64,000 bases of DNA, from assembly GCA_009746045.1 (NCBI GenBank), contig RPFO01000418.1:2495334-2559333 (forward strand). The letters are read 5' to 3'. Position 1 is the first letter of the stretch. Each line of letters starts with the position of its first letter. The notes beneath the pieces are model-generated. The model did not search any database and was not told where the DNA came from. It worked only from the letters and a program-made list of their open reading frames with translations. Made by a program: the position numbers and the translations under genes. Origin of the DNA: Mesostigma viride (lineage: Eukaryota; Streptophyta; Mesostigmatophyceae; Mesostigmatales; Mesostigmataceae). Shown piece after piece: positions 454-49,091 of this stretch.

Positions 454-1303
454 TTTCTTGACCAGAGCGCGACCTTATGGAGCCGGCGTCCCATGCCCTC
501 ACCTGCACGTGGTTGTAGACCATTTCTTGACCAGAGCGCGACCTTATGGAGCCGGCGTCCAATGCCCTCACCTGCACGTGGTTGTAGACCATTTCTTGAC
601 CAGAGCGCGACCTTATGGAGCCGGCGTCCAATGCCCTCACCTGCACGTGGTTGTAGACCATTTCTTGACCAGAGCGCGACCTTATGGAGCCGGCGTCCCA
701 TGCCCTCACCTGCACGTGGTTGTAGACCATTTCTTGACCAGAGCGCGACCTTATGGAGCCGGCGTCCCATGCCCTCACCTGCACGTGGTTGTAGACCATT
801 TCTTGACCAGAGCGCGACCTTATGGAGCCGGCGTCCAATGCCCCCACCTGCACGTGGTTGTAGACCATTTCTTGACCAGAGCGCGACCTTATGGAGCCGG
901 CGTCCCATGCCCTCACCTGCACGTGGTTGTAGACCATTTCTTGACCAGAGCGCGACCTTATGGAGCCGGCGTCCCATGCCCTCACCTACACGTGGTTGTA
1001 GACCATTTCTTGACCAGAGCGCGACCTTATGGAGCCGGCGTCCCATGCCCTCACCTGCACGTGGTTGTGGACCATTTCTTGACCAGAGCGCGACCTTATG
1101 GAGCCGGCGTCCCATGCCCTCACCTACACGTGGTTGTAGACCATTTCTTGACCAGAGCGCGACCTTATGGAGCCGGCGTCCCATGCCCTCACCTGCACGT
1201 GGTTGTAGACCACCTCCTGACAACCTTGTACCTGGATGGGGTAGTAGACCACCTCCTGATAATAGACCGTACCTTATACATCATATAATGCCAATCCCCT
1301 CAC
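454..1303 (-). repeat. 69-bp minisatellite built from the exon 13 donor region (about 11 copies plus 2 diverged)
   Basis: Eleven units of 69 bp run from 454 to about 1212, followed by two shorter diverged units up to the exon at 1304. Read on the minus strand, each unit contains GTCTACAACCACGTGCAG followed by GTGAGGGC. This corresponds to the 3' end of exon 13 (GTCTACAACCTCATCCAG) plus its donor GTGAGGGG. The array is therefore a tandem amplification of an exon-intron border. Because 69 is a multiple of three, long frames stay open through it on both strands, but these are by-products of the repeat. The exon 13 frame itself reaches a TAA soon after its donor. Confidence 0.93.
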
Positions 1304-4300
1304 CTGGATGAGGTTGTAGACCACCTCCTGTGATGCGAACCGGCGCGTCCACTCCCCCCCCTGGCTGGCCACGTTCTCGATCGTCTTGACCGCATAATGC
1401 TGGCAGATCTCCTCCTCGCCCTGCCCACACATGCGGAAGGGGGGCATGAATGCGGGCAACACGAGAAGAGGGCGTGGGTTGGTGGGGTAGGGGCAACTCA
1501 GGAAACGTGAGTGTTAGAGAGAACGGTGACCGCTACCGGAAGGAATCGTCAGGGCTGCGGAGATGGTGAGGGTGATAGCCAAGTGCGGGCGAAAACGCCA
1601 AGCGGGGGGGTAAGGGGGCTGCTCACCCATCTCGACCTGAATGGAATTAACTTGATTTAAACAGCGCATCTCGCGAAACAGGTGCATCCGTTGGGAGGCC
1701 GCGGAGCAAGCACAGTGCTGCCACACCTTGAGCAACTCATTCATAATGCTGGCTGTCTCCTTGATAATGAGCACAGAGCAAGCACTACTGAGCTCAGAGC
1801 AAGCACAAAGGACCGTGTGGCAGCTGGATGGACAGGACACGGGCTGGATAGAGCAGCGGCTTGACGGGACGCTGATGCTGAGAGCACTCATTGGCGCTGA
1901 ATTGGCACTAAATTGGCACTATTTGGCAAGACGCGCATACCGGACGGATAAGCCGCGTGATGAGGCTGATGGCCGTCGGCGGCACTTGCCAGATCTCGCC
2001 AACCGCGGCCGCTGCTGCGCCCGCATCACCATCGGTGGCCGCCGCGGCAGCCGCTGTGTCCTGTGGCAGGGCGACAACCCGCATGCGTTACAAGCGCCGG
2101 CATGCATTACAACCCGCATGCATGCATGGCCATGACCATCCGCATGCGCATGTGATACGACACCCAGCATGCGTTACAAGCGCCAGCATGCATTACAACG
2201 CCCAGCATAGTTTGCAAAACCCAGCATGCATGACAACCGCCAGCATGCATGACGACCGCCAGCATGGCAGCACGGAGAGGGCACCCAGCGATGATGGATG
2301 AGCAGAGAAAAGGTCTACAGGCGATGCCAAGGCGGGCTATCCAGGCAGCGTACTCGGACAGCAAAACAGGGAAGCCTCTTCGGGCAGCCTAATGGGGCAG
2401 CCTTGCAGGGCAGCCGAACAGGGTAGCCTAACAGGGCAGCCTTACCGGGCAGCCTAATGGGGCAGCCTTGCAGGGCAGCCGAACAGGGCAGCCTACCAGG
2501 GCAGCGAAACAGGGTAGCCTAACAGGACAGCAAATTGTCACAGCCTATTAGGAGAGCCTACCAAGGAAACCTGACAGTACAGCCTGAAAGGACATTAAGG
2601 ACATGACTGCAACCACATAACAGGTAGACCACATGTGCTGGCACCACCAACAAGTAGTAGGTGAAGGACATGACTGCACCCACAAAACAGAGTAGACCAC
2701 ATGTGCTGGCACCACCAACAAGTAGTAGGTGAAGGACATGACTGCACCCACACAACAGAGTAGACCACATGTGCTAGCACCACCAACAAGTTGTAGGCTA
2801 CGGCTGCTGTACTAGGCTACGGCTGCTGCACTAGGCTACGGCTGCTATAGCGACCTAGAGTGCTATACCTGCTGCTGGCTGGCCACGTAGAAGAGGATCT
2901 CGCCAAGTGTCGACATGGCCCGCCGCCGCACGCGCTCGTTCTTTTCTCTCAGCAGTTCCGCCAGCACGCTGACGACCCCCGTGGCGCCAAACTCCTCAGC
3001 GATGTACGTCGCGTGGCGCACCAGCAGGCCCAGCACGCTGGACAGCCGCACGCGCAGCGCGGGCGCCTTGCTGGACTTGAGCTGCTTCACAAAGAGCGTC
3101 GCCAGCAGCGAGTTGATGAGCAGGTTGGCGGCGCCCGTGTCCTTGCAGAGCGACTCAAAGTAGGCCAGCGTGTTGACCTGGCGGAAGGGGAGAAAGAAAG
3201 AAAGGAAAAGAGAGGAACAGGAACAATAAGTTCATGGAGACACCGAGCTTGTGGAAAAGGTGCGCCAGGACGTAGGGCCAACCTCATGCTGTGTAAGTCT
3301 GAGAGCTGGCCAGTGGGGTGGCGGGGGGGATACAGAAGAGGAAGGACAAGAACAGGAGGGACCGGCTGCTCTAATTTAAGAAAGGGACGAAAAAGGGATG
3401 CATGCACAATGTCGGCGAAGGGAGCACAATGTCAGCAAAGTGAGCAGTGCGAGATCTATAGATGGAGCTGAAATGAATATGAATGATGAGGCCGAATGGT
3501 TTATGTCTTGTGTTGTAAAGAAATGGCTGTGAAGGGTAGATGCAAGGTACCATGGTATTGCATCAGTCTTGCGATCACGCCACTTGAGCCTTTGCCAGCT
3601 TCGACCACGCCACCCTTAGTCTATCTACCCTGAAAATGGCCCAGAATTTTTGGACGAGCATATCCATTGAGTGGTTCACCCACCAAGTTACCTCCTACCA
3701 CGTAAGTTCTATACATGGAACGGAAATGGAGCCACATGTCAACGTCACCAAAAAAAACACCACGGCCGACCCCATGAGGACGTTGCCACACCTCCACGAT
3801 GATGGTTGCATGGACCACCTCCACGCTGATGGGTGCATCCTTACCACATCATCCTCATCCACCACCCACCCCACCGCACCATTCCTTCATCGCCAACGCG
3901 CGCGGCAGCAACGCCCCGCCTTGTCATTCCGGGGCCACCAACCACAAGCTAGTACCACACACACAGACAGACATGGACATGGGCGACACATAGAAACCAC
4001 CCAGATGACCAGGAAGGCGGTGTGCACATATTAACCGCCGACATATAAACCACCGATATATGAACCCTCGACATATAAACCACCGGCATATAAAACCTCG
4101 ACATCCCCAGTTTGACTTCGTCCTGAAATGGTACTGAGTGAACCACCTTGCGACCTAGAACCCTTAAGCCCCACCTTCTCGTTAATCGGCGTGGCCCCCC
4201 CGACACTCTTGTACACCAGCGTGAGGAAGGCCTCCAGATCCGCCTGCTCGCTGCTCATCATCTCCTCCAACGAGAGCGGCCGGAAGGGGAGCGCCTTCGC

Positions 4301-7300
4301 ATCCCACGGCGGGTCCACCACCTTCTCGATGCGCTTGTTCAGGACAATGGGCTTGACCGCGCTGTCGCTCGGGTGCCACAGGAGCGACTCCAGCTCCGCG
4401 TCCCAATCCATCTCCTCCCCGCCTTCCAAGTCCTCGAACCCGAGACCCCCATCCCCCGCGGTACCCTTGCCATCGAGGACCGCCCCGGCGACGGGGCTCG
4501 AGGACTGCGGGGTGGCACTCGCGGTGCTGGGGGTGGCCGTGCCGGGGGTACTGATGCCGCCCCCGGGGGACGGGCCGACCTTGACAGGGGGAGCGGCGGA
4601 GCGGGGGCCGGGCACGGGGACGAGGTCCCGCCCATCTGCCCCCAATGTGGCCGCTGACGAGGGCGCGCCCTTGACCCCCGTGTGGGCAAACTCGCTCCCG
4701 TCAGTGAAGGGGACGCGGGGCGTGCCGCCCACGCCGGGGCTATCCTGTCCCGCGCGTGAGGAGCCGTCCTGGAGGGGGGGGGGGGGGGGGGGATGAGAGG
4801 AGGGGGATTAAAGGAGGGGGATGAGAGGAGGGGGATGAGAGGAGGGGGATGAGAGGAGGGGATGAGAGGAGGGGGATGAGAGGAGGGGGATGAGAGGAGG
4901 GGGATGAGAGGAGGGGGATGAGAGGAGGGGGATTAGAGGAGGGGGATTGGAGGAGGGGGATTAGAGGAGGGGGATTAGAGGAGGGGGATGAGAGGAGGGG
5001 GATTAGAGGAGGGGGATTAGAGGAGGGGGATTGGAGGAGGGGGATTGGAGGAGGGGGATTGGAGGAGGGGGATTAGAGGAGGGATGAGCAGAGCAGCCAC
5101 CAGACCTAGCACCCACCCTATGACGGCATATCTGCATACTCCACTTACATCCCATATCACATACTAGGGCATATCCACCGCACTTGCCCCGCCCTCCAAC
5201 ATCCCTGTATACTGGGAACAGATTTTAAATCATGCATGCATGTATCTGAGCAACAACACTAAATAGCACACCGTCTAACAGCCCTCCTCCTCCAACCCCC
5301 CTATTCAACTTGTCGTCCTCGTCGCTTTTGTCCTCACGCACCTTATCACTAAACACGGATGCAAACGCACACTCTACCGCATGCACACACCCAATGGTGC
5401 AGACACAGTTCACCCCTTCCCCTTCTCGTATCCATCTACCCGCCTCGTCGTCATCCTTGCTCAAGTCCTCCTCACGCACCTTATCATGGCACATGGATAC
5501 AACCCCCCCTCACTCACCTCATCGTCGTCCTCGCTCATGTCCTCCTCCTCATCCCCGACCTCCTCATCAAAGTTGAGCTCCTCATCCAGGTTGGCCAGTG
5601 TCACCTCCGACGCGCCGCCACCGCTGTCATTGCTGCCGCCGCCCGCACCGCTGCGCACGCCGCCGCTTCCACCACGCTGATTGTACTCGCCTTCGTTGCT
5701 GCGGGGGGAGGGATGAAGGGGGAAGGAGGGAAGGGGGGAGGCCGGGCAATGCAGAGCATCAAGGTGTGAGAGGTGGTACTCACCTTCATTGCTGGGGGGT
5801 GAAGGAGGAGGGAAGGGGGACAGGGGCAGGGAGTCGGAGCTATAGGCTCAAGAGGTGTGAGTGGAGCAAATTGACGAGAGCTCTACCTCATTACAGGGGG
5901 AAGTGAACAAGGGAGAAAGAGGGAAGGGGGGGAGGGGGTGGGGGGGGGGGGACAAGAAAAGGCAGGGCAAGGCAAAACAACGGTTTGAATGGGAACCCCA
6001 TGGCAAGAAACTGCCACCCTGCCGCAGGCAAACGGAGAAACTAAAGATCCGTTCAAAGGGAAACAGCATAAGGTTTTGGGCACCCAATTCTAGTCTGCAG
6101 TAAATTTATCCCACCTTCCCTTCTTATACAGAAAGCAGCAGCAGAAGGCAACCACAAGCGTAAGCTGAGAGCAGCCGCGCGGGCAAACTGATCTGCCTGC
6201 ATTACAGCGCAAGCAAGCTACCTCGTTACATGAGGTATGGTTGAACATGGCACAGGGCACCACTGCAAAGATAAGTAGAGGCCGGTACAGGGATGTTCGC
6301 ACGCCCCACGCAAGCGAGCAACCCACCTCTGCTTGTTGGTCTTGCATCCGCCTTTGCAACAATTATCAGGCTGCGCTACCGAGCGAGCAACCCACCTCTG
6401 CTTGTTGGTCTTGCATCCGCCTTTGCAACAATTATCAGGCTGCGCTACCGAGCGAGCAACCCACCCCATCATCCCCAGGAACGAGAAGCGCTGCCGCACG
6501 CTTCACCCACCTCTGCTTGTCCAGATTGCGCTTCACCACCAGCGACAAACGCATCACGTTCACGCTGCCCTTCTTGCTGGCGTCCGAGACATGCCCCGCA
6601 GACCCCAAGCCCATCCCCGCGCCGACCGCCCCCGCGGGGCCCCCTGCGCCCAGTCTGGCGCCCGCCACGGCGCTATTTGCGCGCGTCATCCCCATGTTGA
6701 TGTCATCCTCGCCACCGGCGCCATCATCGTTGGTATTGCTGTCCACCGGTTGCGAGAGCCGGCGCATGCTCGAATCCACAACGCGCCCCGCCGCCCCCGC
6801 CGGCGCGGCCACCCCGGTCGCCACCCCTGCGGGGCCCAACACGCCCTTCGCCCCCAGCGCCACCGGTGCCGCCGCGCCGCCACCTGCGATGTCCCTGGCG
6901 GCGCCGACCCCTGCCACCGCAGACGTCCCTGGCACCTTTGCCACCCCCGCCACGGCCACCGGTTGTCGTTCCGCGGCAACGATCACCGGAGGGGCGGTCT
7001 CCTTTACGGGAACCTCTGGCATGGCGGGCGCGATGGCAGGGGATAGACCCATCCCTGCACCCGCCTGCTTGTTACGGATGAACTCCTCCAACGCGGGCTG
7101 TGGGGGCAGCGCCAGCCGCTCTGGCTTGACCTTCCACAGCCGGTGGGTGAGCAGCTCATCCCAGGTGATCCGGCTCTCGACGTCCTTTGTGAGCAGCCGC
7201 ATGACCAGGTCGGAGAACTCGGGGGAGACCCCATGCGCGAGGGGCGGGGGGGGGTCGGTCAGGATGGAGGTCACCAGCTGGGTGAAGGAGGAGGAGACAA

Positions 7301-10300
7301 ATGGGGGGCGCCCCGCGCAGCACTCGTACATCACGCAGCCGAGCGCCCACAGGTCGGACGCAAACGAGTGGCAGCCGCCGTCTTGGAACAGCTCGGGCGC
7401 CATGTAGCAGGGGGTGCCGCGCTTGGCTTGGGGGAGCTGGGGAAGGGGGGGGGTCGTGCATCCACGTCATGGCAAAATGGGGTAGACAAGAAATGGATTC
7501 GTCCTTGGTCAGTAATATGGTTTTCTTTTCGCGCAGCCAGAGCGAGATGAGGGGTGGGTACTGTGTGCAGGCCTGCGAGGGATGAGGAGAGATGGGAAAG
7601 GGAGGGTGAAGGAAACAGGACTGGGTGGCCAGCGCGCTGAAGGAGCTGGAGTGGTGAGGTGCGAACGACTACAACCTTTCTGCTATCATGTGTGTCTGCC
7701 GAAGCCCTGTCCACTGCATGTGTGCAGGGCACCCAACTGCTGCAGCGAGTGCCTTTTATACCTGAGGGCAGCGACGGCTGAATCCGCGGGTGTTTTTACC
7801 TATGGCAGCGACAGTGCACTGTCTCATACCTGCTGCAGCGACTGCTTCTCGATATCCACCAGCCGCCGCGACAGGCCAAAGTCGCACAGCTGCAGCGGGC
7901 GTGGCACCAAAGGGGGGGAGCACCACAGGCACAGGGAAGAATGTTTCAGGCAAAGGAAAAAGGCCGAGACACGGAGCGATCGTGCGCCAAGGAAAAGACA
8001 CCCATGTGGAAAATGCAAGCGATATAGCATCAGAGTCGCGATAGAGCATCAGAGTCGCGATAGAGCATCAGAGTCGTGATAGAGCATCAGAGTCTTGATA
8101 GAGCATCAGAGTCACGATAGAGCATCAGAGTCACGATAGAGCATCAGAGTCGCGATAGAGCATCAGAGTCTTGATAGAGCATCAGAGTCTTGATAGAGCA
8201 TCAGAGTCGCGATAGAGCATCAGAGTCACGATAGAGCATCAGAGTAGCGATAGAGCATCAGAGTCGCGATAGAGCATCAGAGTCACGATAGAGCATCAGA
8301 GTCTTGATAGAGCATCAGAGTCGCGATAGAGCATCAGAGTCTTGATAGAGCATCAGAGTCGCGATAGAGCATCAGAGTCGCGATAGAGCATCAGAGTCGT
8401 GATAGAGCATCAGAGTCGCGATAGAGCATCAGAGTCGCGATAGAGCATCAGAGTCTTGATAGAGCATCAGAGTCGCGATAGAGCATCAGAGTCGCGATAG
8501 AGCATCAGAGTCGCGATAGAGCATCAGAGTCGTGATAGAGCATCAGAGTCGCGATAGAGCATCAGAGTCGTGATGGAGCATCAGAGTCGCGATAGAGCAT
8601 CAGAGTCGCGATAGAGCATCAGAGTCGCGATAGAGCATCAGAGTCGTGATAGAGCATCAGAGTCGCGATAGAGCATCAGAGTCGCGATAGAGCATCAGAG
8701 TCGCGATAGAGCATCAGAGTCTTGATAGAGCATCAGAGTCTTGATAGAGCATCAGAGTCGCGATAGAGCATCAGAGTCGCGATATAGCATCAGAGTCGCG
8801 ATATAGCATCAGAGTCGCGATAGAGCATCAGAGTCGCGATAGAGCATCAGAGTCGCGATAGAGCATCAGAGTCTTGATAGAGCATCAGAGTCGCGATAGA
8901 GCATCAGAGTCGCGATAGAGCATCAGAGTCGCGATAGAGCATCAGAGTCGCGATAGAGCATCAGAGTCGCGATATAGCATCAGAGTCGCGATAGAGCATC
9001 AGAGTCGTGATAGAGCATCAGAGTCGCGATAGAGCATCAGAGTAGGCAAAGCAAGGGAGCGGAGAGGGGAGGGAGGGAGGGAGAGAGGGATGCAATACAT
9101 GGCTGTTGCAGAGGCAGCGCATCGCAGATGACAGCACAAGGGTAAACAGGGCGGAGACCCTGTTTCTCCACTATACAGAAACTGTAGCGATTCATGCCCC
9201 GCTTTACTGCCTGCTTGTCAACACCACGGCCAAACCAACAGTTTCACAACCCCCTGGGTTCCTAGAACGTAGCCTTGCATTGCCCGTTGCAAGATGTTGG
9301 ACGCTTTCAACGTCGTGACCCTGTCATCAACTACAGCCACTCATGCCCCTTTTGACCACACTGCCTGTCAGCCATTCATGCCCCTGCTGGCCACACGGCG
9401 GCCCACCTTGCAGCGCCCGTTCTCGTCCAACAAGATGTTGGACGGCTTCAGGTCGCCGTAGACCAGGCCCTTGGAGTGGAGGAACCTGCAAAGCGCTCAG
9501 GTGGACAAGACACAGCGTACAAAGGAGAGAGCATGCCAACGACAAGACCCCATCCCACGGACGACAGCAGTCAGCCAACAAATGTCCAAAAGAATCAAGT
9601 TTTGGCTATGAGCTGTCATGAGACAAGCCCATGGGGGCTTCAGGTGGCTTGGGGTCGGTTGATGGGAAAGGGATGGAGTCGATATGTGAGGAAGGAAAAG
9701 GTGGAGTATTGAGTTGGGCAGGCGGAGGGGGAGTGGAAAGGGGGAGAAAGGCATAGAAACAGGGCCAGCGAAGCATGCTGTTACGATCCATGATCCGCTC
9801 TGTCAATCTCTTACGCTACTTCAATTCAAACCGATGCCCGATGATGCTACAATCAACCAATCCGCTCCGCTTATCTCTAATTTAACTTCAAAGCAAACCG
9901 ACGCCCTGATGGCTACATGTGGTGTGGGTGGGTGCCACCCCATGCCCACAAGACTGCCGCTTTGCAAGGCCATGTTGGAATGATCGGGCACTGGGATTAT
10001 CTGGCAACACCAACTGGATGAAGGGGGCACTCGCTTGCTACGGCTACCCTCTTCCGTCTTTTACCATCCCAGTCTCGCCACACCCCCAGGGGGTTGCCTT
10101 GCGAAGCCCTAGCCCACGACGGACATCCTACCATGCGACCTACATCCAGACACTGCATGCGATCACGTCCGTGGTAGTGCCTGAAGCCAACCCAGGGCAT
10201 CAGCCTCATGCCAAGATAACGTGTGGTTAGCACTACCACACGCTACAGTCATGATGCTATGGCCACTGCGATGGTCACTGTACGCCGCAATTCCTGCAAC

Positions 10301-10432
10301 CCCGCCCACTCACTGCAGCGCCTTGACCAGGTCCACACTGAAGTCATGCACGCAGTCCTCGGGCAGTCGTGTGTCCTGTCATAGGGGAGCGAAGGAGCGC
10401 GCGCGCACACACACACACGCACACACACGCAC

Positions 10433-10528
<96 letters not shown>

Positions 10529-20891: not shown

Positions 20892-23800
20892 GCGAAGGGT
20901 GGTGCGCGCGCTGTGTTCCTCCACTTGCGCATGTTTATTGTTCTTGTTTGCAAACACGGCCCATCCCCCCTTGCCCCAGGTGGCGCTGATGACCAACCCG
21001 CTGTGGGTGATCAAGACACGACTGCAGCTGCAGCGCCACCACGCAGGCACGGTCACGGCCAGCCAGTACCGCCACACCATCGGTGGGTGATGGCATAAAC
21101 GTGCACGCGCCAGCATGGGTGGTGGACCCCTCGGGTTGTAGTGACACCGCGTGGGTGGGTGAGGGCAAAAGCAAGGTGGCGTCGCACATGCACGCGCCAG
21201 CATGGGCGGGTGGCCAGTAAGGGTGTAATGTAACGGTAACACATCACTGTGGTCTGCACCCTGGTGTGCATGCACCCTGTGTTGGTCCTGCTGCGACACA
21301 ACGCCACATGGCGCTCCCGCGTTTGCACGTTCACCGGCCCACGCCCACAGCTGGCTACTCGAGTGCTTACTCCCTCCCCGCTTGCCGCCTCATTTTGATA
21401 CTGCGCCTGGGAGGCTTGTCGCCTCTGTCACCTCATTTTGAATTGATCTTTTTGTTGTTATCACATTATTTTAACGATAATAATGGTGATATTATTTTAC
21501 GTATTGGTATACAAATGGTCGCGATCATGGCCTCTAGTCGGCCACCACGCACCGGTGTGGTATTGTCGCGATCATGGCCTCTTGTTCTTCAACTCCTTTT
21601 CTTTTGACTGTTGTACAGGGTGTTCCGCTCACCCTGTCCCCTACCTTGTGTCCATGAGGTGCCACCTCCACACGGTGAGCTGGCTGACTCTACCCACAAA
21701 GGGGGCGGTATGCCTGCTACTTACCAAGTAAGCTTCATGAGAGTGGCCCCTCGACCCTTTTTGAGGGGTAAGCTAGCCAAGCTCCTAGTGCACGTAGCGG
21801 GTCCACCACTAGTACTAGCCAAGTTCGTCATCCATTTACGTGCATGATGCAAGCACGAGTACCGTGCATGAGTAACGCGCAGTGGATCTGCTGCTCGAAT
21901 CGCTCCCTGCCCCTGCAGACGCGCTGCGCACCATTCTGCGCGAGGAAGGGCTGCGGGGTCTCTACCAGGGGCTGCTGCCCTCCCTGCTGCTGGTGCGTTT
22001 GTTGTCCCCCGCGCAGACAATGCTGCTGTATACATAGCTACCCTCGCTGCTGCTGTGCGTTGCCCGTGTGCTTCCCCCACACAGTTGACTGTGGCTGGTG
22101 TTTATTTATGTCTGGTGTGTATGCCCTTGCCCATGCCCTTGTATAATGTAGTTGGTGTGTCCGCCCTTGCCCACACGGCTCGCTGCGGCTGCCCGTATTG
22201 TTGGTTGCTGCATCGACCGTTGCTGGAGCGTTGCGCATGTTGGCCCATTTTCCATTATATTTTTTACGCATGAAAAGCTTGGTTGCTGCATCGACCGTTG
22301 CTGGAACGTTGCCCATTTTCCATGATATTTTGAACATTTGAAAAGCTTGGTTGCTGCATCAAGCGGTGCTGGTGTGTTGCACTTGCATGTCCCGTACGGC
22401 TCGCGGCTGTTTGTTTAGTATGCTGCTTTCTGCGACGCCTGCGCTTGCTGTGCCTTGCGTGTGAGCATACCTCCTTGCTCGCTGCTGCTGGTGCGTACAG
22501 TTTGGTATGGACAGTTGCTGGTGTGGGCTCATCCCCGTAGAGGAAAGCTTGCTGTGATCAGGGTGCTGTGATAACCGATGTATCTCTGCTCGCCTTCTGC
22601 ATTGTTTGTGTTCGTCCCAGTTAGCGCGTGCCTGTGCTGTCTGTCAAATCTACTGTGTTGCTACTGCTATCATAAACGGGGCATATTTTTACCACCCTCC
22701 AGTGGCCTTTGCTGAACTGGGAAGATAAAGCAGCGTATTTCATCGTTGTCAGACTGAAGTCGTGGCCAGGGTGCGGGGGAAGGGAGGGGCACCCAACACT
22801 TCCTTGCCGACAGCTTGGGTTACTAATATCAACTTTTAAGTTTTCCACACGGCGTGTGCATGTGCATGTTTCAAGTATAATTTTTAGTCGGCACCACTGT
22901 GACCTGTACATCATACCCTGGCCCAGCCACGTTCTATTGAAATGGAGACCGTAAGCCGTTGTTTGATTGCTGGACATAATGTTGCCTACTAATTAGACAA
23001 TTAGTCGGCAACATTATGTCCAGTTTGCTCCATTTTTGTGAGGCTCCTTATTGGGGTGCATGTGCTGTTTGTGAGGCCCTGGACTGATGCCAGCACAACA
23101 CCGCCATCGCTCACAACACGACCACCGCTCACAACACCATCACTCGTGATCTTGGTGCTCATTGGTTTCCACACACACGCACCCGAGGCACATTTTTTTG
23201 CCCCATCCCATCCCATCCCTACTCCCTTTGTAACATATGTTACCTGTTCCAGGATGGTCCAGTGCATTGCCTTCTTCAGAAGGCAATGGAAGTGTGGCAG
23301 TTTCCATGGCTGGAGCCACAGAGGAAAGGCAGCCCCAGACTTTACTGAGCACGTAGATGTGCTCCCTCTGCTTCTCTGCCCCTGCCCGATGTGCCTCTTT
23401 CCCACTCCTCTTCCATTCCCTCCTCTCCCCCCCCCTGCGTTTTCCCCCAATTCTCCACCCATTTTCCTAAACACCTGAATCCCTTTCTGTTTTTCGCTTT
23501 TTTTCCTTCTTTCCCCTTCTCCTTTCTCTCGTTTTTCTTCACGTCCTTTCCCCATTTCTGCGCCCCTCTGGTTCCACCTGCCCCCCTCCTCACCTACTTC
23601 TTTCCTCCCCCTTTCCTCTCCCCCGATCTCCCCCCCTCGCCCCCCCACACACCTACGTGACAATGTGCTCCCCACCCCATACCCCAGGTGTCCCATGGCG
23701 CGCTGCAGTTCATGGCCTACGAGGAGATGAAGCGCTGGATGGATGGCCCGACGTTGGGGTCAGGGAGAAGGGCACCCGTGGCGGGGGACGGGGGAAACCG

Positions 23801-26800
23801 CATGGACGACCAGCGACCCAATCTGGCAAGTCAGCAGGCCACTGGGGTGAAGGGGGCGTCGCTGGTTGGATGGGGAAGGCGCATGGTGGTGCTCCCTGTG
23901 TATACTTTTTGGGAAAATATCTTAAGATTATTATCTATTATTATCTGTATTCTCTTGGGAAGGTGAGATAGGGGAGGGAAAAAAGGGGAGGGAAAGAAAG
24001 GGAGGGGGAAAGAGGGGAGGGGGAAAGAGGGGAGGGGGAAAGAAAGGTAGGGAAATAAGGGGAGGGAAAGAAAGGGAGGGGGAAGAGGGGAGGGGGGAAG
24101 AGGGGAGGGGGGAAGAGGGGAGGGGAAGAGGGGAGGGGGAAGAGGGGAGGGGGAAGAGGGGAGGGGGAAGAGGGGAGGGGGAAGAGGGGAGGGGGAAGAG
24201 GGGAGGGGGAAGAGGGGAGGGGGAAGAGGGGAGGGGGAAGAGGGGAGGGGGAAGAGGGGAGGGGGAAGGGGGAAGGGGGAAGGGGGAAGGGGGAAGGGGG
24301 AAGGGGGAAGGGGGAAGGGGGAAGGGGGAAAGGGGAAAGGGGGGAAGGGGGGAAGGGGGAAGGGGGAAGGGGGAAGGGGGAAGGGGGAAGGGGGAAGGGG
24401 GGAAGGGGGGAAGGGGGAAGGGGGAAGGGGGGAAGGGGGAAGGGGGAAGGGGGGAAGGGGGAAGGGGGGAAGGGGGAAGGGGGAAAGGGGGAAGGGGGAG
24501 GGGGGAGGGGGGAAGAGGGGAGGGGGAAGAGGGGAGGGGGGAAGAGGGGAGGGGGAAGAGGGGAGGGGGAAGAGGGGAGGGGGAAGAGGGGAGGGGGAAG
24601 AGGGGAAGAGGGGAGGGGGAAGAGGGGAGGGGGAAGAGGGGAGGGGGAAGAGGGGAGGGGGAAGAGGGGAGGGGGAAGAGGGGAGGGGGAAGAGGGGAGG
24701 GGGAAGAGGGGAGGGGGGAAGAGGGGAGGGAGAAAGAGGGGAGGGGGGAAGAGGGGAGGGAAAGAAAGGGAGGGAAAGAAGGGGAGGGGGAAAGAGGCGA
24801 TGGTAAGAAGGGGAGGGAGAGAGGAGGTTCCAACCAGGTTGTTAAGACAGGAGGGTGGGTGGCGGAAATGTCTAGTCGCAGACTTGGCAGGCTCGATGAG
24901 TTCTATTGCCGTTGCCGTTGAAGGGTGTTATTGCTGGGTGGAACCTTGGCAGGCATTTTTTAATGAACTTGCAACACGTTAATCGTAAGTTGACCACGTG
25001 CACCGGTAGAGTGGTTTGGGGTTAATTGACCGCTGGTGGTATACGCACTGCCGTCAGCTCAGTACTTTTTTCGTTCAAGTTAGCTGTTCCTGAGAAGAAA
25101 GTGCTAGGCTCAACTGCCGGATAGGGAGATCCCCCTGGAAGAGAGAAGGGCTCTTGTTCTCAAGTCGTGGGTTGTACGAACGAGAGGCAACAACGCACCT
25201 CGCATGGGCAACGTGCGAGCAGGGGCCATGTTATCCAGGTCAACAGGCCCGGGTGTCATCCCTGGTCTGTGCATTCCTTTGATTGGTTTCATATGAGAAA
25301 TCTTTCTCCCCCTTGTCATCGCCAGCTGTCTTTAGTCTGTCATCGCTACTCCCCCTCATTTCCAGGTCAATAAAAAAACTAGATAGTATTGAAGAAACTC
25401 AGAGGGGTTAATTCAGAGGGTTTAGAAAACTAGTCTCTCATCGCCGCTCCCCCTCACTGGTTGCCTCCCCCTCCCCTCACCCTCACTGGTTGCCTCCCCC
25501 TCCCATCCCCCTCACTGGTTGCCTCCCCCTCCCCTCACCCTCACTGGTTGCCTCCCCCTCCCCTCACCCTCACTGGTTGCCTCCCCCTCCCCTCCCCCTC
25601 ACTGGTTGCCTCCCCCTCCCCTCCCCCTCACTGGTTGCCTCACCCTCCCCTCCCCCTCACTGGTTGCCTCCCCCTCCCCTCCCCCTCACTGGTTGCCTCC
25701 CCCTCCCCTCACCCTCACTGGTTGCCTCCCCCTCCCCTCACCCTCACTGGTTGCCTCCCCCTCCCCTCCCCCTCACTGGTTGCCTCCCCCTCCCCTCACC
25801 TTCACTGGTTGCCTCCCCCTCCCCTCACCCTCACTGGTTGCATCTCCGTGCCCCCTCCCCCCCTCGTGTTTTGTTGCCACCTGTCCGCCCTCTTTCATCC
25901 CCCCCCCCCTTTTCGTTGCCATCGGACCGCCCTGTTTCATGGACACCTGTCTCTCAACATTTTCCCAATCCACCGCCCTTGTCGCAGAGCGCGGCGGACT
26001 TTGTCTCTCTGGGCGCTGCGTCCAAGTTTGTCGCGACGCTCGCCACATACCCGTTCCAAGTACTGCGCTCACGCATGCAGGTGAGGGGGGGATGGGGGTG
26101 CGATGCGTGCAGGTGGGGGGGAGACACATGCAGGGGAGGGGGGAGGGGGGAGACGCATGCAGGTGGGGGGGAGGGGTTGCTCGCATGCGGGGGGGGGGGG
26201 GGGGAGATGCATAGAGGTTAAGGGGGAGGGTTGAGACGCATGCAGGTGGGGGGGGCGGGGTGCATGGAGGTTAAGGGGGAGGGGGGACACGCGTGCAGGT
26301 GGGGGGTAGCGCGCATGCAGGAGAGGGGGGAGGGGTTACTTGCATGCAGGGGGTGGGAGACGCATGCAGGGGGGGGGTTGCACGCATGCAGGGGGTGAAG
26401 GGGAAGCATCAACGCACGTGGGGGGGATGAGACCCATGCAGGGGGGGGATCATGCGCACGCATGCAGGTGTGGGGGAAAGGGGGGAGCGGGAAGCCGCAG
26501 ACAGGAAGAAGGAAGAAAGCAAATGGGGAGGGAAGGGAGAGGGAAGGGGGAGATGGAGAAGGGGAGAGGAGGGGGAAAAGGCCGAGCATGCTTGGCGTTC
26601 GTGACCTCTCTGTAAACTGTAAGGGGCATGGGGAAAATTATTGATGCATGAGGCGACAAATTGCGTTGAAACATATAGAGGTGTCATGCATCTCCGCTTC
26701 GCCTCTCCAGTGGCCCATGGTGCGGCCGCACTTTCACCTCCGCGTCTGTGCACGACAGAATTTGCGTCGGAGCACGCCCACGTTTGCGCAAGTGGATGCC

Positions 26801-29247
26801 CGCGTTTGTGTGAGCGCATGCCCACGTTTGTGTCGGCGAAGGCTCAACTTGTCCATCGTGTCAGACCAGAGCTCGTGGTCCGAAGCAGCTCATGTGACCC
26901 GTGTCCTTCATGCGCGACGTGCCAAGTGACCACATTGACATTATTTCTTGCGGCGGGCAGCAATCATTCCTTGCGACGGGCACCAATCACTGCGATCATC
27001 CCTATAAGTTCATTGATTGGCGCAAACCCTCGCACGCCTCTATTGGTCGACGTCATCTTTTTCTTTCGTCATAACGTATGTGGCAATGCCTCTGTATGCC
27101 ACGGCAAGGGGGGATGGGAGCACGCCGGCTTCCATGGCCCAGGGACTTGCCTCCTTGCGGCTGTCACTGGTCTCCTGACACAGAGAATGAACGTACATTG
27201 ACCATGGGTTGAATTCTCAGTTTCCTGTAAACATGTGAAAGAGCTTGTTGCGGCTGCAAGGCACCTACCAGCAGGTCGCGTCGACCGTTCTGCCAGAGTG
27301 TTATTGCCAGGATTTCTCTTGTCGTGAATACTGGTTATCCTCCGTTGACCTCGAGGTAAACTTGAAATACTGGTTATCCTCCGTTGACCTCGAGGTAAAC
27401 TTGAAATACTGGTTATCCTCCGTTGACCTCGAGGTAAACTTGAAATACTGGTTATCCTCCGTTGACCTCGAGGTAAACTTGAGATGGTTATGCTTGCTGC
27501 CTGCCCCGCACGTGCCTGTATGTGTGAAGTGCATTCTGTGTGTGTGAGGTGTATTCTGTTTGTGTGAAGTGTATCGATTGCGATGCGGGGGAACAAGCCA
27601 ACACACGTGCCATAGTGATGGTACCTATTTAGTGGCATCTATCTAGTGGTATCTACCTGATGGTACCTATTTAGTGGCATCTATCTAGTGGTATCTACCT
27701 GATGGTACCTATTTAGTGGCATCTATCTAGTGGTATCTACCTGATGGTACCTATTTAGTGGCATCTATCTAGTGGTATCTACCTGATGGTACCTATTTAG
27801 TGGCATCGATCTAGTGGTATCTACCTGATGGTACCTATTTAGTGGCATCTATCTAGTGGTATCTACCTGATGGTACCTATTTAGTGGCATCTATCTAGTG
27901 GTATCTACCTGGTGGTACCTATTTAGTGGCATCTACCTAGTGGTACCGACCTAGTGGTAATCCTTGGCAGACATACCAAGCATAGGGCGTTGCCGCCCAT
28001 GCAGAAGATGCCCGTGGGGTTGTCTTCGAACACAAATTTATTGACACTTTTGCCATCCAAATTATATTACCAGTTTTATTACCTCTTTTATCGTTAATAT
28101 TCAAGGGGTACGTTCAGAGTTGCTGAAGGGTCAAGTCCTTTATTTGTGAGCTGGTCGCTCAGGTGCACAACAAATGGACCCTTCCAGCTCGCCCCCAACT
28201 CATTGTATTCCATGTACGTGTACCCTTTTTGTACACGTGCCGACTTGCATCTGTACCCTCGGCATGCGCCACCGGCCAGCGTCGGCCGCTCAAGGACGGC
28301 CGGCAGCCGCTCTACGCGGGCGTACGCGACGCATTCCGCAAGACAGTGCGGTACGCAAATCCTGTTGTGCCTTGTCCTGTTAACGAAACTTGCAAGCAAC
28401 AAAACATTTGCTGGACGCCTCTGTTTATAAACGTGGATGCTGGAATCCTGGGGACCCCCGACGCGTTCCGCAAAATGGTCTGGTAAGGCGCCAGCTGTCA
28501 CTGCCCTGGGCTGACAGTCCTGTCTTCCAATCTTGTTGTAAAGTGTTCCTGATCACAAAACTGGTTTCTGACGCGATTGTTGGCGTACTTGGCGCATTCC
28601 AAAGGACAGGCAGGTAAGACAGACGCAAGCTGTCACCGCCCTGTTGGTGCACGTGTGATGGGCAAGGTCGCCAGCACAGCACCGGGTCTCCGCATTTCCA
28701 GCTGCCTGAGTAGTGCGGTTCGTTAGGCGTGACCTGAGAACCCAGTGTTTTTGCATGAGGGAGACAAGGGTGGGAAAGAGGCGCTACGGCACGCATGAGG
28801 GAGACACTACGGCTTCGCAAGGCATCCGCATTGTGAAAATGTTGGAGCCAAGGGTGGGAAAGGCCGAAAGGGGTGCATGGGAGTGGTTACATGACGTGTC
28901 GACAAGGGAGGCTTTTCGGGTAGCGTGTTGGTTTCTGAAACCATTTGTTAGTTTCCGTGCACAATTCGAGAGGCTGGCATAATTGATTGTTTGGATTGGG
29001 CAGCGCCGATTGCTGTGCGGAGCGATGATCAATTTTCTGCAGATGGTCCTGTTGCTGCTTCGGGCGCTTCCAGCTGATGAACTGGTGCACTTCTCCCTGG
29101 CCTTCTGCGTGCAGGAATGGCGGTGTGTTCGCGCTGTATAACGGCCTTGTGCCGCACATGTTGCGGGTGATGCCCGCGTCCGCCCTCACGTTCCTCGTTT
29201 ATGAGACGACGATGGCCTACTTGCACCCGTCAAGCCCCAACGTGTGA
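15194..29247 (+). CDS. SLC25A32: Mitochondrial carrier family protein, SLC25A32-like (folate/FAD), 10 exons, 348 aa
   Basis: Exons: 15194-15329, 16773-16876, 17493-17569, 19710-19806, 20980-21082, 21919-21992, 23688-23846, 25988-26080, 28280-28350, 29115-29247 (stop TGA 29245-29247). Phases agree across all junctions. Three carrier repeats are visible: [10 protein letters not shown] (36-45), [11 protein letters not shown] (144-154) and [10 protein letters not shown] (272-281). The Trp in PLW and the non-acidic third motif mark the folate/FAD/pyrimidine-nucleotide branch. [14 protein letters not shown] (from residue 199) and [11 protein letters not shown] (about 98-108) are closest to SLC25A32/FOLT. 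The protein would span the inner mitochondrial or plastid membrane six times. A linker of about 25 residues (exon 7) separates repeats 2 and 3 and is longer than usual. The exon 4 donor could also be 6 nt earlier; the chosen one gives the family spacing. Substrate is inferred. Confidence 0.88.
15905..16090. repeat. 50-bp tandem repeat in carrier intron 1
   Basis: Nearly four copies of a 50-bp unit contain CAGGACCACTAAATCTGTAG followed by GTAAAACTTC. Each has a donor-like TAGGTAAAA, but it does not resemble the end of exon 1. Confidence 0.93.
17930..18033. repeat. 18-bp tandem repeat in carrier intron 3
   Basis: About five copies of GTAGCTATGGAAGGGCAG in tandem. Confidence 0.9.
18302..18466. 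repeat. (CAGCAC)n then (CAGCAA)n
   Basis: About 94 bp of CAGCAC hexamers are followed by about 71 bp of CAGCAA hexamers inside carrier intron 3. The long open frames through it are repeat artefacts. Confidence 0.95.
19566..19940. repeat. 44-bp and 41-bp tandem repeats flanking carrier exon 4
   Basis: Three 44-bp copies beginning GAACCTTAACTGCCCCTCG lie at 19566-19697, just upstream of exon 4 (19710). Two to three 41-bp copies with TAGAGCACCTGTATGC lie at 19850-19940, after it. Neither unit matches the exon. Confidence 0.9.
20216..20365. repeat. 16-bp tandem repeat in carrier intron 4
   Basis: About nine copies of GTTGCCAAGCGTGGTG in tandem. Confidence 0.95.
20856..20889. repeat. Poly(G) run of 34
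   Basis: An uninterrupted run of 34 G lies on the coding strand of carrier intron 4, about 90 bp before the exon 5 acceptor. Its length in the assembly is unlikely to be exact. Confidence 0.95.
21135..21215 (+). repeat. Copy of the exon 5 donor region in carrier intron 5
   Basis: The real border reads CACACCATCG|GTGGGTGATGGCATAAA, and a little further on GCACGCGCCAGCATGGG. Downstream the pattern recurs: GACACCGCGTGGGTGGGTGA, GGGCAAAAG, then GCACGCGCCAGCATGGG. One tandem duplication with divergence explains it. Confidence 0.75.
22040..22500 (+). repeat. Copies of the exon 6 3' end and donor in carrier intron 6
   Basis: Exon 6 ends CCTCCCTGCTGCTG|GTGCGTTTG. Similar strings recur at about 22049 (CTCGCTGCTGCTGTGCGTTG) and about 22480 (CTCGCTGCTGCTGGTGCGTA). 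Between them is a roughly 75-bp direct repeat beginning TTGGTTGCTGCATCGACCG (from about 22200). Confidence 0.65.
23968..24800. repeat. Purine-only GGGAGGGGGAAGAGG tract in carrier intron 7
   Basis: About 830 bp of the plus strand consist almost only of G and A in units such as GAAGAGGGGAGGGG. The complementary strand shows long open frames of Ser/Pro/Leu, which are repeat artefacts. Confidence 0.97.
25449..25848. repeat. 29-bp pyrimidine-rich repeat in carrier intron 7
   Basis: About 14 copies of CCTCACTGGTTGCCTCCCCC plus nine further bases of C/T/A. They lie about 140 bp upstream of the exon 8 acceptor on the sense strand. Open frames here are artefacts. Confidence 0.97.
26081..26480 (+). 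repeat. Array built from the exon 8 donor region (CGCATGCAG|GTGAGGGG)
   Basis: Exon 8 ends ACGCATGCAG|GTGAGGGGGG. The next 400 bp repeat ACGCATGCAGGTGGGGGG-type units about a dozen times at 20-45-bp spacing. Some have drifted to GCATGCAGGG and so lost the donor GT. Confidence 0.9.
27328..27483. repeat. 39-bp tandem repeat, four copies
   Basis: Four near-perfect copies contain ACTGGTTATCCTCCGTTGAC and CTCGAGGTAAACTTG. They lie in carrier intron 8. Each holds a donor-like GAGGTAAAC, but no exon of the carrier matches. Confidence 0.95.
27617..27960. repeat. 42-bp tandem repeat, about eight copies
   Basis: The unit GATGGTACCTATTTAGTGGC plus ATCTATCTAGTGGTATCTAC repeats through carrier intron 8. 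No exon similarity was found. Confidence 0.95.
28440..28625 (+). repeat. Two tandem copies of the exon 9 3' end and donor
   Basis: Exon 9 ends GACGCATTCCGCAAGACAGT then GCG|GTACGC. About 135 bp further is GACGCGTTCCGCAAAATGGT then CTG|GTAAGG (donor at 28486). About 130 bp beyond that is TTGGCGCATTCCAAAGGACA then GGCAG|GTAAGAC. The following CAGCTGTCACTGCCCTG is also duplicated (AAGCTGTCACCGCCCTG). Both copies have better donor consensus than the exon used. Confidence 0.85.
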
Positions 29248-31036: not shown

Positions 31037-31707
31037 GAGCGTGTAACGACTAAAAATGTTGTGTTTGCAACAGCCTCAGTTTCAACATTGATGTGAAAAG
31101 ATCTTTATACCTGGGTTGGAGTCGCGACAGATAACTTCACGTCCAGAGAAGCAATGAAGATGGATCTTCAACAGTTAAGGGAATGAGTCCCCACCCTTGT
31201 TAGACACAACAGACAATGTTATATCCAAGTCGACTATCTGTTGAAGTTATAGTTGACTTTTAGCGAGGGTTGTTTGATTGATGAAACAAGGAAACCCTTG
31301 AATTACACCATAGCTTTAGCTTTCTTACACGCACACATGCTCAGCCGCCACAAACAGGATAAAAGTCATCATGCACGCAGAGTCGGCTCAGTCCTAACCC
31401 GGAAGGACCAATCAAAAGTGAGAATCACTCCAGATAAGATCTTAGCTCCCGAATCCTCAACACAACACAAAGCCAGCACATACGGAATCTCCATGACCTG
31501 GAACCAGATCTACCAGGTACAACGGTATTAAAGAGAATCTATGACTGACTGAACAAAACCATGCAAAGTACCCTACGTGGATCAGGCCACGACCAATGAG
31601 GGTAGAACAATAAATTCTGCAGATCTCAGCAGGCCCAATATCCATCAGACGTTGAAGCCTCCTAACTTCCCAAACAATTGTCCTAAAGAACTCATAATAA
31701 GATCACC

Positions 31708-32332
31708 AATCCATTTCTGGCCTTGCCTTGCTTTGCATGCATCACCACAAAACATCAAATTTATTACAATATGTGTGCTAGCTCTATACGGTGGAATAAC
31801 ACAGACATGTCTACCAGATGGCAACACGGCCATCTGTATGCTAGGGTGAGCACACTATGTGAATGTGCAGGGCCAGCCCACAGCAGCTGTGCCCCTGCTC
31901 TACCCCTTTTGCCAGGGTGGGTGGGTGGGAGGCAAAAGAAACAACCTGCTTCCCTAGAATGGAAGCCCACCCTTTATAGCAACCACCTCTCCAGCCAACC
32001 CCTACCTGGGTGGCTGGGGTACGGGTGCCAGCACAAAAAATATTTTTTCTAAAATTATTTTTTCTTTGGTGCTATACGGCGTTGCATTCTCCGCTCAGCA
32101 GGTTAGTCATAGATAAAATGAGCATAGCTCACCAAATCCATTTCTGGCCTTGCCTTGCTTTGCATGCATCACCACAAAACATCAAATTTATTACAATATG
32201 TGTGCTAGCTCTATACGGTGGAATAACACAGACATGTCTACCAGATGGCAACACGGCCATCTGTATGCTAGGGTGAGCACACTATGTGAATGTGCAGGGC
32301 CAGCCCACAGCAGCTGTGCCCCTGCTCTACCC
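31708..32332. repeat. A1-spacer-B1-A2 repeat block of the PAT-like element
   Basis: A1 (31708-31905) and A2 (32135-32332) are 198-bp direct repeats that look identical. B1 (31930-32134) is repeated as B2 at the other end (36824-37030). The spacer 31906-31929 has no second copy. It contains GGGTGGGTGGGTGGG, and CTTTTGCC at its start pairs with GGCAAAAG at 31931-31938 as a perfect 8-bp inverted repeat. Confidence 0.95.
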
Positions 32333-45094: not shown

Positions 45095-45796
45095 TGTAAC
45101 GACTAAAAATGTTGTGTTTGCAACAGCCTCAGTTTCAACATTGATGTGAAAAGATCTTTATACCTGGGTTGGAGTCGCGACAGATAACTTCACGTCCAGA
45201 GAAGCAATGAAGATGGATCTTCAACAGTTAAGGGAATGAGTCCCCACCCTTGTTAGACACAACAGACAATGTTATATCCAAGTCGACTATCTGTTGAAGT
45301 TATAGTTGACTTTTAGCGAGGGTTGTTTGATTGATGAAACAAGGAAACCCTTGAATTACACCATAGCTTTAGCTTTCTTACACGCACACATGCTCAGCCG
45401 CCACAAACAGGATAAAAGTCATCATGCACGCAGAGTCGGCTCAGTCCTAACCCGGAAGGACCAATCAAAAGTGAGAATCACTCAAGATAAGATCTTAGCT
45501 CCGAATCCTCAACACAACACAAAGCCAGCACATACGGAATCTCCATGACCTGGAACCAGATCTACCAGGTACAACGGTATTAAAGAGAATCTATGACTGA
45601 CTGAACAAAACCATGCAAAGTACCCTACGTGGATCAGGCCACGACCAATGAGGGTAGAACAATAAATTCTGCAGATCTCAGCAGGCCCAATATCCATCAG
45701 ACGTTGAAGCCTCCTAACTTCCCAAACAATTGTCCTAAAGAACTCATAATAAGATCACCAGTAGGAAAACTTTGGATGTAACATTTGGTTGTTACA
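45095..45796 (-). repeat. 5' LTR of the chromovirus with TATAAA box
   Basis: An intact 702-bp LTR in minus orientation, ending with the TGTAAC/GTTACA terminal palindrome. A TATAAA box on the minus strand at 45162-45157 is a likely promoter element, leaving a short transcribed end before the PBS. The 3' LTR has the same box at 31109-31104. Confidence 0.95.
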
Positions 45797-46276: not shown

Positions 46277-48398
46277 TTAAGGGGACGGGACACCCCCAAA
46301 TTTTTTGGCGCCAAAAAATTCGCGCCGGAGCCGAAGGTCACAAATTTCACGTGCACGGTGCGCGCACCCCTTGCGGAAGTGGTCTTGGCGACTGCGTTCA
46401 GGCAAAACTACCACACTAGGGCAGGCGAAATGCAAAAAATTTACTCGAATCTAAAAGGAGATGAGTTTATGATGTTAGTTTGTGGCGGAAATCAGCTGGT
46501 TTACAATATCGCTGTTGTTTTTTTATGCCATCGGCATGGGGGGTAATCTGAATTTTTTGGTCGCGCGGAATGAAATAGAATTCATGATAGCGGCTGTAAA
46601 ATAGCGGTTTTGGGGGCTGTTCTGACCTTGAAGCAGGCATTAATATCGGTTGCATCGAATTCTAAACCGAGCAGGTGCTTTTTGCCAGATTTTCGGCCAT
46701 TATCGGTAAGTAATTGTTCAGACCTGCGCAGTGCGTGTCTGACCTGTCCATGGAAGAACGGCTGTTGTTGCGCGCCTGGGCGAGGGATTTACGAGGGCAA
46801 GGTACAGAATTGTCGCGAACGTTATCTGCTATCGGTGCTTTCTTCTATGAGCTCATCGTTCGAGGTTTTTTGCGTTCTTTTTGGGCAGTTTCCGCCAGCT
46901 AGCTCGCCGTCGCTTGCCGTTGTGTTGTCGAATACCTGGCAGCTTTAGATTGTTTTCGTTGATGTCGTGATCAGGGCCGCTTCAGTCGCAGCCTATAGCT
47001 CTTCGGGAAGGTATAAGGCATTTCATAAAACGTGTTCTGGCAAGGATGTTGTGCGTATGGACGCTTCTTGTTGTTTGAGAGTGACGCACCCTCTCCTCAC
47101 AGGCCGCAGCGGCATCACAGCGCTCATGCGGTGAAGGGCCGCCAATGGTTTCTTTGCATTTTATCGTGCAGGGATGGAAGTGTTATAGTGATGATGATGT
47201 TGGAGATATTGCATTTGTGTGACTGCATGTAGATAGCTGGCACCAATGGTTGTTTGAGCTTTCCTTTGTTATGATGATGTGCATGACAAGACTACAATGT
47301 GCTGAGCCAACCATGGTTGACATGCATGACTGCATGCAAGCTATATATACCATGTTCTTAGTACTTGGTTCCTTGCCCTCCATAGTCCCAGTTTGTCATC
47401 CATGCCGGGGAGGACAGTTTAGGAGGTGTTGTTGTGTTGATTAGCTTGGTTGGCATCAACCTTACACTCTAACCTGGGAGAAACATAGGAAATGCCGCTT
47501 AGGCATGTTAGGGCTACCATCGTCAAGGCTATGCACATATTTACAAGGCTGGCCATGCTGGAGGGATGATGAAGACATATGAGGTGCGTGGCCACCCCTT
47601 TGTACTTTGTAAACATACTCTGCATGGTTTTGGTGCATGTTGGATGGCATATTAAGTGGCACTGTGGGGTTACTAACTTACTGAGTGGTCCTTAGCGCCT
47701 TGTCATGTGGTCATATAGGAAACCCATCAACTTGAGCAGTTCTTGTCGCAATGACCCCCCACATTGAGCATGCGTTGCCGTCAGCGTGCAAGAGTTGATT
47801 ATGTGTGCTTTGGTCAGTTTGCAGATGTCTTTGATGAAGAAGGAGGTGCTAGTGTGGCTAAATGGTTACTCTAATTTCCTTGTAGCGTCTACATGAGTGG
47901 CCGTCTTGGAATGGTTGTAACTTGGGCAGTTCTTGTCAGAATGGCGTCAAACCTTGAACATAGGAGGTACCATATGTGCAGAGAATGGTAGTGTGTGGTT
48001 TGGCCAGTTTTCATGAGGCTTAGATGTATAAAGGGGTGTTAGTGTGGTTAAATACTAGCTAAAACCTCCCTTAGCTTCGTCACAGGTGGCAATCTAGGAA
48101 TATTCATCAAATAGGGCTGCGCTTGTCAGAATGACCTGAAAATTTGGGGCTGCATGTCCCCCCCTCTCTAGTATTTGGGAATATATGATTTGGCCCTATT
48201 CCATGTGTTTATGATTTGATAATTTTTTTTCATTAAAAAAGTACCCTTTTTGCGGGAAAATCCATCAATGTGTGTAAACATGATAATTTTGTGCTCAAAA
48301 TTAGGTAGCATTTCTCAAAAGTCAGGGAACTATATGGGAATATATGATTTGGTCCCAATATGTTTGCCCACTGCCCTAGGAAAAATGTGACTAGAATA

Positions 48399-48760
48399 GC
48401 GTCTTTTTCTATTTTTAGCGCGTTACCGGTGCCCTGTGGGGGCTAGTACCCCCCCCAAGTGGCTGGAAATTTTTTTTAAAATCATATTAATGGTCCCCAA
48501 TCATCATTGGATTTTTAGCACATGCATAGGTATGGTTTCCAGAAAAGTGCCCTTTAGGGGTGTCCCTTCCCCTTAAGGGGAGGTGTGCCACCAAAACCCC
48601 CCAAAACTGGAATACACTTGTTTCAATATGAATTCAATTGAATTATGCCCAGCCATGATTAGGGGCCCTAAATAACATGTTTAGTGAGTTATCCATGCAT
48701 TCATTGAAGGTTCTACCCCCAACCACGCGCCGGTATCGCGCTAAAAATAGAAAAAGACGC
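48399..48760. mobile_element. 362-bp MITE with TA target duplication
   Basis: The ends are inverted repeats beginning GCGTCTTTTTCTATTTTTAG and continuing CGCG, near-perfect over about 30 bp. TA flanks both sides (48397-48398, 48761-48762). The interior is non-coding. Size, TIRs and TA duplication fit a Tc1/mariner-type MITE nested in the larger element. Confidence 0.85.
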
Positions 48761-49091
48761 TAATTAGGGCACAGTATGCCCCAGCCAATGCACACATCAA
48801 TTCAGGCCAGCCATGATATTTTCCAAGCAGGTCGTGGGTGGCCAAAAATTGGAGCCACTCACAACCCATATCTGACATGCTTTAGAATTTTTATGCTCTT
48901 GCAAGTACAAAAACGCTGTTTTTCACACATGCCAAAAATAATAAAATACCAAACACTTGTGAAATGGGCCAAACATGATATTTAAAATTCCATTAGTCAT
49001 CGACACACACGCTCGCAAAATCTGGCTGCATTTGGACAAGCGGTGTGGAAGTTATGCTCTTTGGCAGCATGCCACCTGGGCGTCCATTATA

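Follow-up and report, generated by a model that had tools for sequence, protein, structure and literature searches.

Why should the introns of two genes hold, in so many cases, copies of the end of the exon that stands just before them? The window analysed here is a stretch of 64,000 nucleotides from Mesostigma viride (assembly GCA_009746045.1, contig RPFO01000418.1, positions 2,495,334 to 2,559,333 of the forward strand), whose left 29 kb are occupied by two eukaryotic genes, a ULK4-like kinase on the minus strand (14252 to 1304, 12 coding exons found, the gene running past the window edge) and a mitochondrial carrier on the plus strand (15194-29247, 10 exons). The whole data set consists of these two genes in one window. 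The exon-end copies are specific for the exon's own downstream intron and lie on the same strand, and the explanation that we favour, with a probability of roughly two in three, is that they are boundary-spanning minisatellites, that is, products of ordinary local tandem duplication that are tolerated behind the donor used first.

Exon-end copies and their own introns

In the following, E denotes kinase coding exons and C carrier exons, while E12 is taken as the exon that an earlier note on this DNA had counted as kinase exon 13. When joined at GT-AG borders, with a single GC donor at C7, the exons yield open reading frames 2595 and 1026 bases long for the kinase and the carrier, respectively. 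Kinase residues 1-144, reaching into exon 7, align without gaps to ULK4 (PDB 6u5l), the alignment crossing the junctions E1/E2 to E6/E7, and PF00153 is matched in three stretches of the carrier protein. The GC donor is located at 23825 on the plus strand, at the end of carrier exon 7, where CTG is followed by GCAAGT.

The last 30 bases of each upstream exon were aligned, under a scoring scheme of our own choice, to all 21 testable introns (20 of them complete, the other truncated at the edge of the window), with the first 25 bases of each intron excluded. The own downstream intron outscored the 20 other introns for 10 of the 21 exon ends, where about one is expected, and it ranked first equally often (10/21) with the last 40 bases and for 9/21 with the last 20. 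Not one of 20,000 permutations of exon ends over introns reached the score sum observed with the 30-base query, and this result was unchanged (0/20,000) after removing exon E4 and with scores capped at 30; on these 21 introns, the observation of the earlier note is confirmed. When 24-base windows were ranked for their own intron, those lying 0, 12 and 24 bases inward of the exon end came first in 10, 7 and 7 of 21 cases, and those at 36 and 48 bases in 1/19 and 1/16 (permutation p 0.04 and 0.05); in the same ranking, no clear signal was found for windows more than 48 bases from the exon end. As controls, the upstream intron was searched with exon ends (top rank 0/20, p 0.31) and the downstream intron with exon starts (top rank 0/21, p 0.85); for reverse-complemented exon ends, p was 0.28, 0.22 and 0.04 at query lengths of 20, 30 and 40 bases, respectively, with two of 21 ranking first at 40. 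By these side and strand controls, a general resemblance of exons to introns is rejected.

Ten cases were accepted after inspection of the alignments, namely E3, E4, E6, E7, E8, E9 and E12 of the kinase and C6, C8 and C9 of the carrier, where 10-40 bases from the very end of the upstream exon recur inside the same intron, in most cases together with a donor-like site. E8 was kept although it is top-ranked only with the last 20 bases, C7 was dropped as a purine-rich match that ranks first only with 30 bases, and C1 was dropped as a match of an internal 10-mer that ranks first only with 40; the 10/21 used in statistical comparisons is the count before inspection, which includes C7 and omits E8. 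The earlier note had reported own-exon copies in at least 11 of 22 introns, and this stands for ten, with 21 introns testable instead of 22. Carrier exon 5 was not counted among the exon-end copies, as nine of 20 other introns score equally on its exon side, and its copied part is the intron start alone.

The same note took each exon to have a separate array, produced by a recurring process and not by one mobile family. Both ideas agree with the data, since on reassignment of exon ends and in the controls the same-strand copies match their own intron and not others, and each exon has its own copies in 10/21 introns. Algal genomes commonly contain introners and misassembled repeats, which would speak for an assembly artefact or a mobile family of the introner type. 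However, within the window each copy matches the exon and intron to which it belongs, and no sequence common to many introns, as expected of introners, was found among the copies, so that a mobile family is rejected at this scale; in addition, the copies span from nearly identical to strongly diverged, a range that misassembly does not make. We therefore regard an origin of either kind as very improbable.

Exon parts, intron parts and the two ends of the intron

The clearest case is E4 (11521..11596 on the minus strand, donor at 11521, placed by the gene model and the ULK4 alignment), the native end of which forms unit 1 of an 85-bp array of 6.7 copies (11000..11567, by alignment and array detection), with units in register across the junction. 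In most of its units, roughly 45-55 bases come from the exon and roughly 30-40 from the intron, with the donor region in between. Behind E12 (1304..1420 on the minus strand, donor at 1304, from the gene model), the exon-end copies occupy 454..1258, first one copy at 1258, then followed by GTACAA, and after it eleven units of a 69-bp array with GTGAGG-like donors, the exon end being mostly followed by GTGAGG. Coding use of the E12 array was considered and rejected, because a stop codon interrupts the reading frame of E12 after 30 intron bases.

Apart from E4 and E12, exon-end copies are few and diverged. On the minus strand, alignment places a copy of the E3 end with a GTGAGC donor-like site at 12355..12384 (relative -15..+15; the exon itself, gap-free to ULK4 in the gene model, lies at 12429..12481 with its donor at 12429), a degenerate copy of the E6 end with an internal deletion at 9274..9309, and a copy of E7's last 16 bases, with TT at the donor, at 7737..7752; in these E6 and E7 copies the exon is clearly recognisable and the donor is gone. 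A 69-bp array of 2.2 copies at 6313..6465 (alignment and array detection) includes 16 bases copied from the E8 junction (-10..+6), and E9's last 30 bases recur at 5443..5473 with GC at the donor position and once more, further diverged, at 5296..5335 (both by alignment). On the plus strand, the C6 end (native donor 21992) is copied at 22037..22061, with one donor base missing, and at 22478..22496, where CTG followed by GTGCGT is intact; the C9 end (native donor 28350) is copied at 28459..28482, then GTAAGG, and at 28582..28613, then GTAAGA, all four by alignment. Arrays of G-rich, ACGCATGCAG-like copies of the C8 end (native donor 26080) fill 26124..26489, according to alignment and array detection. 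Kinase intron 6 also contains, at 8019-9043, a 19-bp unit repeated 54 times, which has no relation to the exon end.

Do the copies also carry the intron? To this question the earlier note had answered that they extend past the GT donor. In the ten accepted cases, the intron head behind the native donor was aligned to the sequence behind the first copy's junction, and p <= 0.01 was obtained in five (E4, E6, E8, E9 and C8). The head is cleanly co-duplicated for E4, E6 and E9 (p <= 0.01; in E6 it is found near the degenerate copy, p 0.01), so that the answer is borne out in at least three of ten cases. In several copies, the resemblance ends close to the junction.

At the other end of the intron the picture differs. 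For exon starts, the upstream intron takes first rank in 3/20 cases (permutation p 0.14), which against 10/21 on the donor side gives a Fisher p of 0.04. The last 30 intron bases rank first in 0/19, and pooled with the exon starts this makes 3/39 versus an interior rate of 23% (p 0.01). Nevertheless, the contrast is a matter of degree, because good copies exist for two exon starts, on the minus strand by alignment: that of E9 in the intron upstream of E9 (5776..5791) and that of E12 in the intron upstream of E12 (1742..1761), both rare acceptor-side cases. The E9-start copy is preceded by an acceptor-like CAG and has a strong donor-like GTGAGTAC eight bases on, and it resembles a cryptic micro-exon. 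Selection may be the cause of the difference between the two sides and would predict it, since copies behind the donor do no harm as long as the first donor is used, and copies before the acceptor do.

Intron interiors, copied donors and the favoured explanation

According to the earlier note, the process appears to act repeatedly on existing borders. When 30-base windows from the first halves of 20 introns were ranked for their own downstream intron, 229 of 800 trials (28.6%) came first, with rates of 0.26, 0.27, 0.29 and 0.37 at offsets of 0-100, 100-200, 200-400 and 400-800, and in these introns no peak of self-similarity near the donor was found. Because interior windows are self-similar at all offsets, the duplication is general. 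Tandem arrays with a period >=11 occupy 28.7% of the bases in the 20 complete introns, and 66% of the 1.3 kb behind E12, while coverage elsewhere is 2.8% of exon, 1.3% of the right half of the window and none in 0.9 kb of other sequence. The own donor flank is the best donor-flank match for nine of 49 intron arrays, with about two expected, and for 40 it is not; several arrays near a donor are wholly intronic, with no donor match (intron positions 71-147 of E10, 63-103 of C2 and 40-140 of C4). With the 229/800 and the 9/49, the idea that the process acts on borders in particular is not supported: the border is special just mildly, and a generally high rate of intron duplication accounts for most of the pattern.

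The most serious competitor is a process directed at 5' splice sites that seeds arrays at exon ends, e.g., by breaks or R-loops near the donor or by priming from a free 5' exon. Here, donors would promote duplication through a process linked to the released 5' exon or to recognition of the 5' splice site, by which exon ends are copied again and again into the downstream intron, and splice sites would then be mutational hotspots that lengthen introns from the 5' end. It could draw on the exon ends, which rank first in 10/21 versus 28.6% of interior windows, on the excess of donor-side over acceptor-side copies, and on the resemblance that stops near the junction in several copies, together with the low recurrence of intron starts (3/20). 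However, the excess over the interior is slight (p 0.05 one-sided, 0.09 two-sided) and inflated by two biases, since interior windows faced shorter targets and the native exon is constrained and does not drift, so that an exon end stays recognisable longer than an interior segment because only the copy drifts. The clean co-duplication of intron heads in E4, E6 and E9 and the wholly intronic near-donor arrays of E10, C2 and C4 also count against such a process, and we consider it unlikely.

The introns hold 35 strong donor-like sites in sense and six in antisense, under a site model built from the same 21 native donors, and not all of the 35 sit in exon-end copies. As sequence, then, the rows of alternative donors proposed in the earlier note are there; as usable sites they fare badly, as 31/35 lie past a stop codon in the upstream exon's reading frame, and their use would truncate the protein. 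Among the listed copy rows, GT is kept in 25/36, mostly non-independent array units of E12 and E4 and with at least two rows being doubtful fragments, and it is absent from 11/36, E6 and E7 included. The copied donors are probably unused, and protein conservation over the native junctions, together with the stop codons, suggests that the native donor is the one used. Selection could still keep the copies in a regulatory role in splicing, as decoys or back-up donors, as the 35 sense sites against six antisense and the C9 intron would indicate; in the latter, the native site is weak, two sites are at least its equal in strength, and the copied donors are GTAAGG and GTAAGA. But with GT missing in 11/36 rows, 31/35 strong sites past an in-frame stop and the high counts driven by near-identical units of two arrays, a regulatory role is less likely still than a donor-directed process.

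We return to boundary-spanning minisatellites. Local tandem duplication of DNA, by a chemistry that we infer, would occur frequently all along the introns of both genes. Where a donor-spanning segment is duplicated, the native exon and donor would remain first and the copies would land in the intron; with splicing committed to the donor that comes first behind the exon, the protein would be unchanged, and because of this the array could persist, expand by unequal exchange and decay. A duplication spanning the acceptor would place a copied acceptor upstream of the native one, where it would tend to be used first and insert extra sequence, and such duplications would mostly be removed.

Several observations weigh against this explanation. 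The head test is confounded for E8 and C8, where an array unit is already part of the head that was aligned, and has no bearing on the native head there; co-duplication lacks support in E3, E7, E12 and C6 (p 0.13-0.29) and is borderline in C9 (0.05). Simple duplication would sit uneasily with the first 30 intron bases recurring in their own intron in 3/20 cases (E4, E12 and C5) and with the first 25 ranking first there in 4/21, below the exon ends. This low recurrence may be put down to drift of both intron copies versus one-sided drift in the exon, but it also fits copying that favours the exon. The excess of exon ends over interior windows given above belongs here as well, and so does the fact that exon starts alone are not below the 23% interior rate (p 0.28), while the contrast of donor and acceptor sides is built on small numbers. 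In mammalian systems, duplicated donors often favour the intron-proximal copy. Finally, the evidence is limited to two genes in one window.

The right half of the window carries retroelement genes. Identical direct repeats about 14 kb apart (31042-31341 and 45095-45394, further 31449-31708 and 45501-45760) have genes for gag, integrase and a chromodomain between them, and the whole is a young long terminal repeat (LTR) retrotransposon, within which another element is perhaps nested at about 31.7-37.0 kb. A large inverted repeat at 46351-51164, whose arms show 81-92% complementarity across five blocks, resembles a DNA element bounded by long terminal inverted repeats. Arrays are about 20 times denser in the introns (1303-29250) than in this transposon-rich half (29251-64000), at 28.7% versus 1.3%, which insertion age or transcription could explain. 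A related locus was found neither in genome contigs nor in viral contigs, the latter searched with three proteins and two DNA patterns; in one of the protein searches of the viral contigs, 20 stretches matched a pattern and none was confirmed. Searches of the window gave no Rfam match and no tRNA.

Comparison with known systems

Intron gain through tandem duplication of AGGT segments is an established model, as the earlier note had said and as the available text of two papers confirms (PMC3443670, PMC2891723). The same type of segment is duplicated here, and the arrays might for this reason be seen as steps of intron gain. In that model, however, a new intron arises, whereas here the copies sit inside existing introns that own native donors and acceptors, and exon-start copies are few (3/20); we hold this origin to be highly doubtful.

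In Chlamydomonas and Volvox, tandem repeats are densest in introns and commoner near intron-exon junctions (PMC3887541). The concentration of tandem repeats in introns is common to both cases, but the available part of that study describes no derivation of units from exon ends. In human paralogs, variable internal tandem repeats include minisatellite expansions, some at exon-intron boundaries, that alter gene structure; according to the part of the account at hand, and unlike here, they sit in segmental duplications and half are in coding sequence (PMC2812944).

The earlier note knew of no named class of repeat that matches, but the 'mirages' of amphioxus do. As far as the accessible text describes them, these are minisatellite-like tandem duplications across exon-intron boundaries of the Adh3 and globin genes, with units of 10-160 bp, present at both boundaries and many with AG/GT, and RT-PCR suggests that splicing is undisturbed (PMC3087553). 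The arrays described here fit the structural definition: duplications span the exon-intron boundary, most clearly in the E4 array, which continues across the native junction, and in those of E12 and C8, and many units carry splice signals (25/36 listed rows keep GT, mostly in E12 and E4). They differ in that 10/21 introns of two genes are involved, mostly on the donor side, while in amphioxus both sides are reported, along with RT-PCR and haplotype length differences; the present case is known from one sequence. A literature search, with subscription papers largely outside its scope, found no report of exon-end arrays in about half of a gene's introns, nor of a donor/acceptor difference in such arrays. 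If that difference holds genome-wide, exon-seeded minisatellites would be natural experiments on how the spliceosome chooses among similar donors, and would show how introns can lengthen harmlessly. The density of 10/21 introns would extend a structure known from a few amphioxus genes to a GC-rich genome with minisatellite-rich introns.

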